From Aurantimonas endophytica (GTDB lineage: Bacteria > Pseudomonadota > Alphaproteobacteria > Rhizobiales > Rhizobiaceae): DNA of 64,000 nucleotides. Under the pieces are notes generated by a model. The model was given only the letters and a program-made list of their open reading frames with translations. It was not told where the DNA came from and ran no database searches. Position numbers and translations under genes: made by a program. Positions 3,366-36,157 of the stretch are shown one piece after another (the first letter of the stretch is position 1; every line of letters begins with the position of its first letter). The DNA is taken from assembly GCF_014196845.1 (NCBI RefSeq), contig NZ_JACIEM010000001.1, positions 744,001 through 808,000 of the forward strand. Reading direction: 5' to 3'.

Positions 3366-3521
3366 CTATAAAGAAGGCGCCCGTGAGGCGCCGACTGCGG
3401 TCTAGTCTCGGGAGGACGCGGTTTCCGGCGCGACATATTGTTGCAGCCCCGAACAAAGTCTTCGGTGTGAAATCCAGGCACGCAACTTCATGATGCAAGG
3501 CGAAAGCCTTGCATTTTTTTT
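3366..3521 (+). ncRNA. Candidate trans-acting small RNA, possibly of the alpha-r9 (Smr9C) family
   Basis: The 410-base gap between proS and the DUF1467 gene contains no credible protein gene. On the plus strand, opposite to both neighbours, it ends in a clear intrinsic terminator. The RNA would be about 145-155 nt. It would carry a 5' hairpin (GGCGCC, loop CGTGA, GGCGCC at 3375-3391), a central unpaired stretch and the terminator hairpin. From memory, the Sinorhizobium meliloti sRNA Smr9C (alpha-r9 family, about 149 nt) lies between proS and a DUF1467-type gene on the strand opposite proS. Position, strand and length therefore agree. The family name is inferred from synteny and I have not aligned the sequences. 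Confidence 0.6.
3494..3521 (+). terminator. Intrinsic terminator of the small RNA
   Basis: Perfect stem GCAAGGC / GCCTTGC with a GAAA tetraloop, extended by T/A pairs and followed by eight T residues. The T-run is on the plus strand only, which sets the direction. Confidence 0.85.
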
Positions 3522-24675: not shown

Positions 24676-24707
24676 AAAAAAAATGCCGCCCCGGAGGGCG
24701 GCATTTT
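24676..24707 (-). terminator. Intrinsic terminator of lon
   Basis: Stem ATGCCGCCC / GGGCGGCAT with a four-base loop, flanked by eight A residues on the left and four T residues on the right. On the minus strand this is a hairpin followed by T8, 22 bases after the lon stop. The T4 on the plus side may give some two-way function. Confidence 0.88.
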
Positions 24708-24728
24708 CGATAAAAGCGCCAGATGCGC

Positions 24729-27149
24729 TCAGTGGGCAACAGCCGTCGCGCCGTCGTCGACCAGCGGAGTGCCCGTCATCGGCTCCTCCTTCTCGGACCA
24801 CTCGACCGGCACGAGCGGCTCCGTGAGGGCATGCTTGAGCACCTCGCCCATGCGCGAGACCGGGATGATTTCCATCCGGTTCTTCACGGTGTCCGGGATC
24901 TCGGCGAGATCCTTGGCGTTCTCCTCGGGGATCAGCACCGTCTTGATGCCGCCCCTCAGCGCCGCCAGCAGCTTCTCCTTCAAGCCGCCGATCGGCAGGA
25001 CTCGACCGCGCAGCGTGATCTCGCCGGTCATCGCGATGTCCCGGCGAACCGGAATGCCGGTCAGTACCGACACGATGGCGGTCGCCATCGCGACGCCCGC
25101 GGACGGACCGTCCTTCGGCGTCGCGCCCTCCGGCACGTGGACGTGGATGTCCCGCTTCTCGAACAGCGGCGGCTTGATGCCGTAGTCGAGCGCGCGCGAG
25201 CGGACGTAGGACGCCGCCGCGGAGATCGACTCCTTCATCACCTCCTTGAGGTTGCCGGTAACGGTCATCTTGCCCTTGCCCGGCATCATCACGCCTTCGA
25301 TCGTCAGCAGCTCGCCGCCGACCTCGGTCCAGGCAAGACCGGTGACGACACCGACCTGGTCCTCGGATTCCGCCTCGCCATAGCGGTAGCGGGTGACCCC
25401 GAGATAGTCCGACAGGTTCGCCGCCGTGACCTCGACCTTCGTCGCCTCGCCCTTGAGGATCTGCGTCACCGCCTTGCGGGCAAGCTTCGTCAGTTCCCGC
25501 TCGAAGCTGCGCACCCCCGCCTCGCGGGTGTACCGCTGGGCGATCTCGCGCAGGGCGTCCTCGCTGACCGAGAACTCCTCCGGCTTCAGGGCGTGGTCCT
25601 TGATAGCCTTGGGCAGCAGATGCCGTCGCGCGATCTCGACCTTCTCGTCCTCGGTGTAGCCGGCGATCCGGATGATCTCCATCCGGTCCATCAGCGGCGC
25701 CGGGATGTTCAGCGTGTTCGCGGTAGTCACGAACATCGTCGCCGACAGATCGTATTCGACCTCCAGATAGTGGTCCATGAAGGTGGCGTTCTGTTCCGGA
25801 TCGAGCACCTCGAGCAGGGCCGACGACGGATCGCCGCGGAAGTCCTGGCCCATCTTGTCGATCTCGTCGAGCAGGAAGAGCGGATTGGTCTTCTTGGCCT
25901 TCTTCATCGACTGGATGACCTTGCCGGGCATCGAGCCGATATAGGTCCGCCGGTGACCGCGGATCTCCGCTTCGTCGCGTACGCCGCCAAGCGCCATGCG
26001 GACATATTCGCGCCCCGTCGCCTTGGCGATCGACTTCGCCAGCGAGGTCTTGCCGACGCCGGGAGGTCCGACGAGGCACAGGATCGGACCCTTGAGCTTC
26101 GACTGCCGGCTCTGCACCGCCAGATACTCGATGATCCGCTCCTTGACCTTCTCCAGACCGTAATGCTCGGTGTCGAGGATCTCCTCGGCCTTCTTCAGGT
26201 CGATCTTGACGCGCGAGCGGTTGCCCCACGGCAGGCCGAGCAGCCAGTCGAGATAGTTGCGAACCACCGTCGCCTCGGCCGACATCGGCGACATCTGCCG
26301 CAGCTTTTTCATCTCGGCGTTGGCCTTTTCGCGGCCTTCCTTCGAGAGCTTGGTCTTCTTGATGCGGTCTTCCAGCTCGGCCATCTCGTCGCGACCGTCC
26401 TCGCCGTCGCCGAGCTCCTTCTGGATCGCCTTCATCTGCTCGTTGAGGTAGTACTCGCGCTGCGTCTTCTCCATCTGGCGCTTGACGCGCGAGCGGATGC
26501 GCTTCTCCACCTGAAGAACCGAAATCTCGGACTCCATGAAGCCGAGTGCGCGCTCCAGCCGCTCGCGCACGCTGACGAGACTCAGCATTTCCTGCTTCTC
26601 GGGCAGCTTGATCGCCAGATGCGACGCGACCGTGTCGGCAAGCTTGGAATAGTCGTCGATCTGCCCTGCGGCACCAACGACTTCCGGCGAGATCTTCTTG
26701 TTCAGCTTGACGTAGTTCTCGAACTCGGAGACCACCGAGCGCGCCAGCGCCTCGATCTCGACCGGATCCTCGTCGGCTTCCTCGATGATGTCGGCATAGG
26801 CCTCGTGCCACTCGGTGCGAGCGGTGAAGCTCTCGATCCGCGCGCGGTCGATGCCCTCGACAAGCACCTTGACGGTCCCGTCGGGCAGCTTGAGCAGCTG
26901 CAGGACGTTTGCCACCGTGCCGACCTCGTAGATCGCATCGGCGGCCGGATCCTCGTCGCCGGCGTTCTTCTGGGTGGCAAGCAGGATCTGCTTGTCCGCG
27001 CCCATCACTTCCTCGAGCGCCTTGATCGACTTTTCGCGGCCGACGAAGAGCGGGACGATCATGTGCGGGAACACGACGATGTCGCGAAGAGGCAGGACCG
27101 GGTAGAGACTGGCCTCGCCCCCGCCGGAACGTTCGGATGTATGGGACAT
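24729..27149 (-). CDS. lon: ATP-dependent protease Lon
   Basis: Soluble AAA+ serine protease that degrades misfolded and regulatory proteins; 806 residues. The N-terminal LON domain opens [20 protein letters not shown]. Walker A is [15 protein letters not shown] and Walker B is [10 protein letters not shown]. The proteolytic domain carries the Ser in [13 protein letters not shown] and the Lys in [11 protein letters not shown]. The start is [11 protein letters not shown] with an AAGGAA site; a start 19 codons upstream lacks one. A heat-shock-like promoter lies about 90 bases upstream. Confidence 0.97.
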
Positions 27150-27236
27150 GGTGTTCCTTTCTACGGCATCACGCCGTGCAGGCCGTCCGCGGCAGACCTT
27201 CATCAAGCATCCGCGGCGAACGCCTCAATGATCACT

Positions 27237-33995: not shown

Positions 33996-34024
33996 TTGCA
34001 TTGCACCAAGCGCAAGGCTGTTAT
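33996..34024 (+). promoter_or_regulatory. Candidate promoter for the DUF1127 gene and RNA array
   Basis: TTGCAT and TGTTAT are 17 bases apart and would start RNA near 34031, leaving a 110-base leader. In Rhodobacter the comparable cluster is driven by RpoH-type stress sigma factors. I do not see a clear RpoH box here, so the regulation may differ or the real promoter may be elsewhere in the leader. Confidence 0.4.
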
Positions 34025-34140
34025 GCGCATTCGTGTCTAGCGACGGCGGCGCCGGCCACCTAACTTCCAAACACCGAAGCGGCGCAGCCAAATCAGCGAA
34101 ACCGCTTCAATCGATTGAAATCGCATACAGGCGATACGAC

Positions 34141-34284
34141 ATGAACATCATGCGCTCTTACAGCAACTGGCGGCGCTACCGCGAGACGGTCAATGAGTTG
34201 AACCGACTGTCCCAGCGCGAGTTGTCCGACCTCGGCATCTCGCGTGCCGACATCCCTTCCCTGGCTCGCCGCGCAATCGGCTGA
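34141..34284 (+). CDS. DUF1127 small Arg-rich protein (CcaF1-like)
   Basis: A 47-residue basic protein matching DUF1127: NWRRYRETVNELNRLSQREL then SDLGISRADIPSLARRA. The R-x-L-x-x-L-s-x-x-x-L-x-D-I/L-G-i-x-R core is complete. A longer in-frame start upstream gives an unconserved leader, so I use the ATG at 34141. In Rhodobacter sphaeroides the DUF1127 protein CcaF1 is encoded just upstream of the CcsR sRNA cluster. It is an RNA-binding protein that takes part in sRNA maturation. The same arrangement is seen here, with the RNA array beginning 18 bases after the stop codon. Confidence 0.93.
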   Translation: MNIMRSYSNWRRYRETVNELNRLSQRELSDLGISRADIPSLARRAIG

Positions 34285-34301
34285 CGCCTGACGACATCGA
34301 G

Positions 34302-34426
34302 TTTCGCGACGGCCCACCTCCTCCCGGGTCCTAGCGGATACGGGGCTGCCACTCCTCCTCCCAATCGGCAGTCTCACCTAAGTCGCCCGCCGGGTCCTCC
34401 CCCCGGCGGGCGCACAGAATTGCAGA
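34302..34426 (+). ncRNA. Cuckoo/CcsR-type sRNA unit 1
   Basis: Hairpin 1a is GGCCC / GGGTC at 34311-34330. Hairpin 1b is GGCTGCC / GGCAGTC at 34344-34373 with one G-U pair. Hairpin 1c is GCCCGCCGGG / CCCGGCGGGC at 34385-34411 with loop TCCTCCC. CCTCCTCCC lies at 34317-34325 and 34354-34362. Likely processed from the DUF1127 transcript. Known family: alphaproteobacterial cuckoo RNAs with CCUCCUCCC motifs. The exact ends are unknown. Confidence 0.85.
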
Positions 34427-34554
34427 TTTCGCCGAGAGCCCTCTCCTCCCTGGGCTTAAGGCGAATGTCGACCCGCGCATCCTCCTCCCAAGCGCGCGGG
34501 TTTTTCTTGGTCGCTCGCCGGGTCCTCCCCCCGGCGAGCGTGCCGGGAAATTGG
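34427..34554 (+). ncRNA. Cuckoo/CcsR-type sRNA unit 2
   Basis: Hairpin 2a is AGCCC / GGGCT at 34437-34456, enclosed by an outer TTCGCC / GGCGAA helix (34428-34433 with 34460-34465). Hairpin 2b is ACCCGCGC / GCGCGGGT at 34471-34501 and is directly followed by TTTTTCTT. Hairpin 2c is CGCTCGCCGGG / CCCGGCGAGCG at 34512-34540 with loop TCCTCCC. The T-run after 2b looks like an internal, possibly partial terminator. Confidence 0.85.
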
Positions 34555-34667
34555 TTTCGCGACGGCCCACCTCCTCCCGGGCCCGAGCGGATAGTGGCCT
34601 GCGCATCCTCCTCCCAGCGCAGGTACAGTAGCGACGCCCGTCAGGTCCTCCCCCTGACGGGCGTTTT
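34555..34667 (+). ncRNA. Cuckoo/CcsR-type sRNA unit 3
   Basis: Hairpin 3a is GGCCC / GGGCC at 34564-34583. Hairpin 3b is CCTGCGC / GCGCAGG at 34598-34623. Hairpin 3c is ACGCCCGTCAGG / CCTGACGGGCGT at 34634-34664 with loop TCCTCCC and a T-rich tail. CCTCCTCCC lies at 34570-34578 and 34607-34615. The first 25 bases nearly repeat unit 1. Confidence 0.85.
34634..34667 (+). terminator. Intrinsic terminator closing the RNA array
   Basis: A 12-base perfect stem, a seven-base loop TCCTCCC and T4 followed by CGTTT. It is both hairpin 3c and the end of the DUF1127/sRNA transcript, 68 bases before trmFO. Confidence 0.8.
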
Positions 34668-34735
34668 CGTTTGTGGTGTCCTGGTGCGACCCGTCGGCCC
34701 TTCCGGCAAGCGCGCCGCGCTGCTAGACTCTGCCG

Positions 34736-36157
34736 ATGTCAAACAAGCCCATTCACATCGTCGGCGGCGGCCTCGCCGGCTCGGAAGCCGCATGGCAGAT
34801 CGCCGAACAGGGCGTGCCCGTGGTGCTGCACGAGATGCGCCCCACCCGCGGCACCGAGGCGCACAAGACCGAGCATCTCGCCGAACTCGTCTGCTCCAAC
34901 TCGTTTCGTTCGGACGACGCCGAGTCGAATGCCGTCGGCGTGCTGCACGCCGAGATGCGACTGGCCGGCTCGCTGATCATGCGGGCCGCCGATTCCCATC
35001 AGGTGCCCGCCGGCGGCGCGCTGGCAGTGGACCGCGACGGGTTCGCCGCTTCCGTCACCGCGGCGATCGAGTCGCATCCGCTGATCCGGATCGAGCGCGG
35101 TGAGGTCGACGGCCTGCCTCCGGCCGAATGGGGCTCGTCCATCGTCGCGACCGGGCCGCTGACTGCTCCGGCGCTCGCGGAATCCATCCGCGCTGCTACA
35201 GGTGCCGACGCGCTGGCGTTCTTCGACGCCATAGCGCCGATCGTGCATTTCGATTCGATCGACCTCGACAAGGCCTGGTTCCAGTCGCGCTACGACAAGG
35301 TCGGGCCGGGCGGGACCGGCAAGGACTACATCAACTGTCCGCTCGACAAGGAAACCTACGAGCGCTTCGTCGCGGCGCTGGTCGAGGGCGACCGCACAGA
35401 ATTCAAGGAATGGGAAGGCACGCCCTATTTCGACGGCTGCCTGCCGATCGAGGTGATGGCGGAGCGCGGGCCGGAGACGCTGCGTCACGGGCCGATGAAG
35501 CCGATGGGCCTCACCAACGCGCATCAGCCGGACATCAAGCCCTATGCCGTGGTGCAGCTGCGCCAGGACAATGCGCTGGGCACGCTCTACAATATCGTCG
35601 GCTTCCAGACGAAGCTGAAACACGGCGCCCAGGCCGGGATCTTCCGGATGATCCCCGGGCTCGAAAACGCCGAGTTCGCCCGGCTGGGCGGCCTGCACCG
35701 CAACACCTATCTCAACTCGCCGGTGCATCTCGATGCGCGCCTGCGGCTCAAGGCGATGCCGCACGTACGCTTCGCCGGCCAGATCACCGGCTGCGAGGGC
35801 TACGTCGAATCGGCGTCGATCGGCCTTATCGCGGGACGCTTCGCTGCTGCCGAGGCGCTGGGTACGGAGATCGCGCCGCCCCCGCAGACCACGGCGACCG
35901 GCGCGCTGCTCGCCCACATCACCGGTGGTCACCTCGCCCACGAGGAGGAAGGCGGCAAGCGCTCCTTCCAGCCGATGAACGTCAATTTCGGTCTGTTTCC
36001 GCCGCTCGAGCCGGGTGCGGTCCAGAAGCCGGAAGGGATGAAACGCTTCCGCGGCAAGGAGAAATCTGCCGCTCGCAAGAAAGCGATGTCGGCACGGGCA
36101 CTGGCGGACTTCGCCGCATGGCTTTCGCCCCGGGCGCTCGCCGACGCGGCGGAGTGA
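34736..36157 (+). CDS. trmFO: TrmFO, folate/FAD-dependent tRNA m5U54 methyltransferase
   Basis: Makes 5-methyluridine at position 54 of tRNA using methylenetetrahydrofolate and FADH2; 473 residues. The N-terminal Rossmann motif is [18 protein letters not shown]. The two cysteines implicated in catalysis are seen in [18 protein letters not shown] and [35 protein letters not shown] and [20 protein letters not shown] are family signatures near the C-terminus. Its length is close to the usual 440-480. The start follows the RNA array by 68 bases. CTAGAC just before the ATG could be a -10 box, but no -35 box is clear. Confidence 0.96.

Follow-up and report, generated by a model that had tools for sequence, protein, structure and literature searches.

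On the plus strand of the Aurantimonas endophytica window (the whole 64,000 nt stretch analysed here), nine hairpins lie at 34301-34665 in three units of three, with the anti-Shine-Dalgarno (aSD) motif TCCTCCC unpaired in all nine loops, and by covariance model these units fit αr14 small RNAs better than CcsR RNAs. It is likely, with a probability of about three in four, that they are the 3′ part of an LsrB/VtlR-activated DUF1127 mRNA, which would be cut into translation-blocking αr14 sRNAs. This reading draws on the anatomy, homology and conservation of the array, on covariation in most of its stems, on internal hairpins without U-tracts, on the motif upstream, and on an LsrB/VtlR relative encoded in the genome, all computed here; that the locus is transcribed and cleaved, which mRNAs it acts on, and what its protein does are deduced.

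The preliminary description of the locus had reported nine aSD-loop hairpins in three tandem units with a period of 125-128 nt, six loops of the CTCCTCCC type and three of TCCTCCC, downstream of a DUF1127 gene. Loop positions, loop counts, folding and a Pfam match bear all of this out (Table 1). The unit-to-unit periods are 125 and 128 nt and the units abut, the distance from a c loop to the next a loop being 49 nt both times. All a and b loops carry CTCCTCCC, five of the nine loops have the full 9-mer CCUCCUCCC, loop a of unit 2 has CTCCTCCC, and the c loops have TCCTCCC only. There are nine copies of CTCCTCCC in the window against 3.3 expected, six of them inside the array, and none of 100 shuffles reaches nine. 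Tandem Repeats Finder (TRF) detects the array with a period of 128, 2.5 copies, and a score of 273. The stop codon of the DUF1127 gene is 35 nt from the first loop core, trmFO (34736-36157) lies behind the array, and trigger factor and tRNA-Leu are upstream of the DUF1127 gene on the minus strand.

Table 1. Features of the DUF1127-αr14 locus, in window positions.
Feature	Position	Strand	First base of TCCTCCC	Remarks
LsrB/VtlR-type activator box	34002..34024	+		TGCA-N6-GCAA then TG-N3-T; 10/11 motif positions
Core-promoter-like pair	34036..34064	+		-35 TCTAGC, 17-nt spacer, -10 CCTAAC; assigned by eye
DUF1127 gene	34141..34284	+		47 aa; PF06568, 58.6 bits, E 5.1e-16
Unit 1 hairpin a	34301..34341	+	34319	Loop ACCTCCTCCC
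Unit 1 hairpin b	34342..34375	+	34356	Loop ACTCCTCCTCCCAATC
Unit 1 hairpin c	34382..34415	+	34395	Loop TCCTCCC, without U-tract
Linker 1, to TTC of unit 2	34413..34430	+		A/U 0.61; candidate RNase E site, cleavage inferred
Unit 2 hairpin a	34425..34469	+	34444	Loop TCTCCTCCCT
Unit 2 hairpin b	34470..34502	+	34483	Loop ATCCTCCTCCCAAGC; GC stem, then TTTTTCTT from 34501
Unit 2 hairpin c	34509..34544	+	34523	Loop TCCTCCC, without U-tract directly behind
Linker 2, to TTC of unit 3	34541..34558	+		A/U 0.50; candidate RNase E site, cleavage inferred
Unit 3 hairpin a	34556..34591	+	34572	Loop ACCTCCTCCC
Unit 3 hairpin b	34592..34630	+	34609	Loop ATCCTCCTCCCA
Unit 3 hairpin c	34633..34672	+	34646	Loop TCCTCCC, T-rich tail; likely array terminator (terminator scan)

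Folding of each unit, which the preliminary description had proposed as a check, gives three hairpins per unit, with z-scores of -4.3 for unit 1 (1 of 200 shuffles as good) and -7.2 and -5.3 for units 2 and 3 (0 of 200 each). The whole array folds at -194.2 kcal/mol (z = -7.0), as none of 100 shuffles does. Since the stems are palindromic, the opposite strand also folds, less well (z -0.7, -4.4, and -2.8 for the three units).

Assignment to αr14 is based on the Rfam model (RF02344, gathering cut-off 58.8 bits), which covers all three units from first to last position and scores 62.6 bits in unit 3, above the cut-off, 58.7 in unit 1, just under it, and 48.6 in unit 2, under it. The preliminary description had placed the array in the CcsR/cuckoo system and suggested a covariance-model search with that family. 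The hairpins behind the DUF1127 gene do look like aSD hairpins of that kind; the CcsR1 model (RF02791) gives 36.0, 33.3, and 30.2 bits, under its cut-off of 65.3 in every unit. As the family of the units CcsR was rejected, for its worse fit to the covariance model, although αr14 itself exceeds its cut-off in unit 3 only. Published descriptions give αr14 RNA three hairpins whose stems vary greatly and which all carry the CCUCCUCCC motif (PMC10746234, PMC7143759), and all three units have three hairpins. The third hairpin class, thought at first to be new, is accordingly not novel: αr14 already has three motif hairpins, both in these descriptions and in the Rfam model, and hairpin c corresponds to its third, terminator-like hairpin. 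Elsewhere in the window, at 3368-3520 (+), there is a match to another alphaproteobacterial sRNA family, ar9 (RF02343; 62.4 bits, cut-off 45).

With αr14/NfeR1 of Sinorhizobium meliloti the array shares three hairpins per unit and the aSD motif in all loops, and also variable stems and an LsrB-type box upstream (PMC10746234). It differs in that its units are fused head to tail without promoters of their own, lack internal U-tracts, have a c loop of 7 nt instead of 10, and sit in the 3′ portion of a DUF1127 gene. The cuckoo motif has been described as two to four hairpins (PMC4504443), and cuckoo RNAs are reported to be frequently paired with short DUF1127 proteins, in what is called the CIN1 locus: a DUF1127 gene, then tandem aSD sRNAs and a single terminator at the end (PMC10253847). 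This organization is shared between the array and CcsR1-4 of Rhodobacter sphaeroides (PMC10253847). The CcsR1 model, however, has two hairpins where the array has three per unit, and R. sphaeroides CcsR has an RpoHI/RpoHII promoter, whereas an LsrB/VtlR-type box is found at the array locus. AbcR1/2 (αr15, RF02345) are likewise tandem LsrB/VtlR-activated aSD sRNAs (PMC7143759, PMC7486931), but they are a different RNA family.

The αr14 family is widespread. Matches at E <= 1e-4 were found in 339 of 346 sampled family genomes, 325 of them over the cut-off; of 60 genomes, some nearer and some farther, 45 have a match at E <= 0.01 (own genome included in both samples). All eight genomes of the genus that were searched (this one and seven others) have three units with nine TCCTCCC loops, flanked in each of the seven relatives by DUF1127 before and TrmFO behind. 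More units are present in other relatives: four (12 loops) in two of them, L132 and L133, the latter with the same array as L046, and six (18 loops) in Aurantimonas sp. 22II-16-19i (L045). In one genome (G030) the array breaks the assembly and is split between the ends of two contigs (L136, L137). The first end has DUF1127, a unit with c loop TCCTTTC and further units; the other has six units, then TrmFO, and among the six are two whose c hairpins are damaged and one beside an N. The number of units in this genome is uncertain because the assembly is unreliable there. Among the 80 loci kept after searching through TrmFO, where the best identities to the TrmFO of this genome are the 84-85 % of two Aurantimonas strains, 49 contain one or more three-hairpin units, and in 23 a regular expression placed a DUF1127 gene no more than 400 nt ahead of two or more clustered loops. 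The expression misses variants such as L128, recovered by tblastn, in which the DUF1127 protein (~1766-1906) is 72 % identical and has an altered form of the otherwise constant DLG motif.

Selection acts on most of the stems. Arrays of the three sub-lineages of the genus are 74-79 % identical, yet TCCTCCC is kept in 72 of 72 loops, and invariant alignment columns make up 57/63 of the loop cores, 142/232 of the paired and 33/88 of the other unpaired positions; slippage of the alignment where loops are of unequal length probably accounts for the six loop columns that vary. When stem arms were exchanged between units of relatives (500 permutations per class), own arms paired at -19.06 kcal/mol against -15.01 exchanged for the a hairpins (28 distinct), -18.65 against -10.71 for the b hairpins (24 distinct), and -25.64 against -19.83 for the c hairpins (19 distinct). 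No permutation reached the own-arm mean in any class, an outcome that is not usable as a probability because the sequences are related. Among orthologous hairpins inside the genus the own-arm advantage is clear for 1a, 1b, 2a, 2b, 2c, and 3c, slight for 1c and 3a, and absent for 3b (-17.9 own, -18.1 exchanged). The earlier claim that stems vary and stay paired thus stands for all three classes and hardly, within the genus, for 1c, 3a, and 3b. In the relative L133 a mismatch interrupts the c stem of unit 1. Chance or low complexity as the origin of the array is ruled out by the fold z-scores together with the arm-exchange tests.

Hairpin c and the sequence behind it set the array apart from other αr14 loci. 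Units were compared in hand-chosen sets of 11, 16, 5, and 19 loci, a subset of all, a T-tract being scored where at least five of eight nucleotides behind hairpin c were T. In Aurantimonas-like arrays T-tracts follow 9 of 11 last units against 2 of 27 internal units (25 of 27 are without); in the array studied here, the T-rich tail stands directly behind the c hairpin of unit 3 only. In the Rhizobium/Sinorhizobium-type set (18 distinct loci and 33 distinct units, 35 before removal of a double, L060 having the same array as L142), every distinct unit has its T-tract, and units are single, or two with 192-461 nt between the c loop of the first and the a loop of the second. Loci of the Mesorhizobium/Aminobacter type are intermediate in spacing and T-tracts, which occur in 4 of the 13 units that have another 77-101 nt behind them and in all 18 units that are last or farther away. 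Four of the five units in the Phyllobacterium/Brucella set have one, the fifth (L049) being a wrongly grouped unit. Loop length differs likewise: all 38 Aurantimonas-like units have the 7-mer TCCTCCC as their c loop, which is 10-11 nt long in 32/33 Rhizobium/Sinorhizobium-type and 29/31 Mesorhizobium/Aminobacter-type units, 7-nt c loops occurring there singly (1/33 and 2/31, respectively). That internal units have retained hairpin c but not the tail speaks for a possible use of the hairpin in binding or in shielding the 3′ end of each processed unit; the 7-nt loops may be less accessible.

Two further places in unit 2 resemble terminators. A weaker terminator-like hairpin from the terminator scan (34530-34547, +) falls in linker 2 and overlaps the 3′ arm of hairpin c, and at hairpin b (34470-34510) the GC stem is followed by TTTTTCTT, a T-run kept wholly or partly in the two nearest relatives (TTTTTCTT in L126, TTCTTCTT in L127) and not in the other genomes of the genus. 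Part of the transcripts could end early at either place.

Upstream of the DUF1127 gene, the activator box was scored with an 11-position motif that is the author's combination of the published LsrB box TGCA-N6-GCAT (PMC10746234) and VtlR box GCAT-N3-TG-N3-T (PMC7486931). The box at 34002 is the sole place on either strand of the window with a score of at least 10, and in all 12 loci compared, 10-11 of the 11 positions recur at the corresponding place. An alignment of 11 upstream regions has its main conserved block some 115-140 nt ahead of the start codon. A stricter box pattern, within 500 nt of the first loop, was found in 12 of the 49 loci with units, which is a lower bound. A generic sigma-70 scan found no core promoter. 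The -35/-10-like pair follows the box at about the spacing published for NfeR1 (PMC10746234), and its -10-like block partly recurs in relatives. With a predicted transcription start near 34071 the box match at 34002 would lie at about -69, the published position being -72 to -57 (PMC10746234).

LsrB is reported to activate NfeR1 (PMC10746234), and Brucella VtlR to activate three DUF1127 genes and AbcR2 (PMC12595884). In S. meliloti lsrB adjoins abcR (PMC7143759), and in one relative a LysR-type gene (L178) stands beside the abcR pair; the present genome encodes a protein 64 % identical to this LysR type, the next best being 31 %. AbcR itself was over the αr15 cut-off in 9 of 40 genomes searched, all nine among 16 other family genomes, and in none of the eight genomes of this genus, two of which have weak 26.5-bit matches; a search of G034 gave no match. 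The genus possibly retains a diverged AbcR. A candidate in the present genome (window 24677-24784; 32.3 bits, cut-off 40) was not counted; it falls on the 3′ end of a long frame on the minus strand (24729-27206), and αr15 is not listed there in the regional Rfam scan.

Taken together, the locus is proposed to be a single transcription unit of an LsrB/VtlR-activated promoter, the 47-aa DUF1127 gene, three fused αr14 units, and one intrinsic terminator. RNase E would probably cut the transcript in the linkers, which are richer in A/U, and release three three-hairpin sRNAs from it. Across 16 linkers the A/U fraction is 0.55, against 0.32 for whole arrays; the linkers were taken up to the next TTC, which slightly favours A/U, and the excess is only compatible with RNase E cleavage of a precursor. 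CcsR is reported to be processed by RNase E with CcaF1 (PMC8625941, PMC10253847), and the DUF1127 protein here may aid maturation in the way that CcaF1 does in Rhodobacter. Whether DUF1127 proteins act on RNA is disputed, those of Agrobacterium being described as acting via protein contacts and YjiS as showing no RNA binding (PMC12501420). The genome has six DUF1127 matches, five over the cut-off, and none of the other five is near an αr14 match.

Through their loops the sRNAs would base-pair to mRNAs at the Shine-Dalgarno region and keep translation from initiating, as NfeR1 does in S. meliloti, where it represses a target reporter by pairing at the initiation region and a mutant in all three motifs does not (PMC10746234). 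A scan for GGGAGGAG-N3-9-ATG returned 23 rows (two overlap, 22 places) against six with the reversed pattern. Ten of the 23 downstream frames were taken through Pfam and nine had a family, with a DctP solute-binding protein and an antiporter subunit among them; the 23 rows and these ten frames showed no clear functional theme. A pattern search for the 16S tail in the draft genome gave no match. Fusion of the units would multiply the sRNA molecules made per transcript and couple them to the DUF1127 protein.

The linkers also bear on whether the nine-loop RNA is itself the active form, an unprocessed, multivalent decoy of Shine-Dalgarno sequences serving as translational brake or sponge. The motif common to all loops, the lack of room for promoters in the linkers, and the expansion to six units in one relative, perhaps more in another, would all suit such a decoy. 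It is nevertheless unlikely, as the linkers are A/U-richer than the rest of the array, the precursor is reported to be cleaved in the closest studied DUF1127-linked system (PMC8625941), and Sinorhizobium αr14 functions as a single sRNA (PMC10746234).

Strong GC hairpins and a terminator just ahead of trmFO would also be expected of a 3′ UTR device, with little action in trans, that protects the DUF1127 mRNA or times its decay and insulates trmFO. Stability alone would not require the loop cores to be the best-kept part of the alignment, as they are, and αr14 acts in trans in Sinorhizobium (PMC10746234); such a device is thus very improbable. Least credible of all are three separate αr14 genes that each have a promoter and a terminator: the Rhizobium/Sinorhizobium-type loci examined are arranged in this way, with their T-tract per unit and wide spacing, but here the c-to-a loop distance is the same short one twice and the internal units are without T-tracts.

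The RNA family and the likely mechanism are already known, and the link to DUF1127 has been published as the CIN1 locus (PMC10253847). What is distinctive is that the units are fused, that their internal U-tracts are missing, that the c loop is fixed at 7 nt, and that there is an activator box; the head-to-tail fusion seems to be a lineage-specific expansion of the known family. The open-licence literature yielded no paper on fused αr14 arrays of the Aurantimonas lineage, a weak negative, as the 2015 paper on cuckoo RNAs may list some. A speculative scenario, rather doubtful at present, is that in this lineage the terminator hairpin became an internal, non-terminating binding module with a 7-nt loop, and that αr14 units then multiplied (three to six, perhaps more) on one LsrB/VtlR-driven DUF1127 transcript, replacing the undetected AbcR sRNAs, with unit number setting the strength of a lineage-wide translational control. 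Two published branches of the LsrB/VtlR regulon, the DUF1127 genes and the αr14 sRNA NfeR1, meet here in one presumed transcript, and the natural series of arrays of one to six units is suited to testing the effects of sRNA copy number and of the 7-nt aSD loop.
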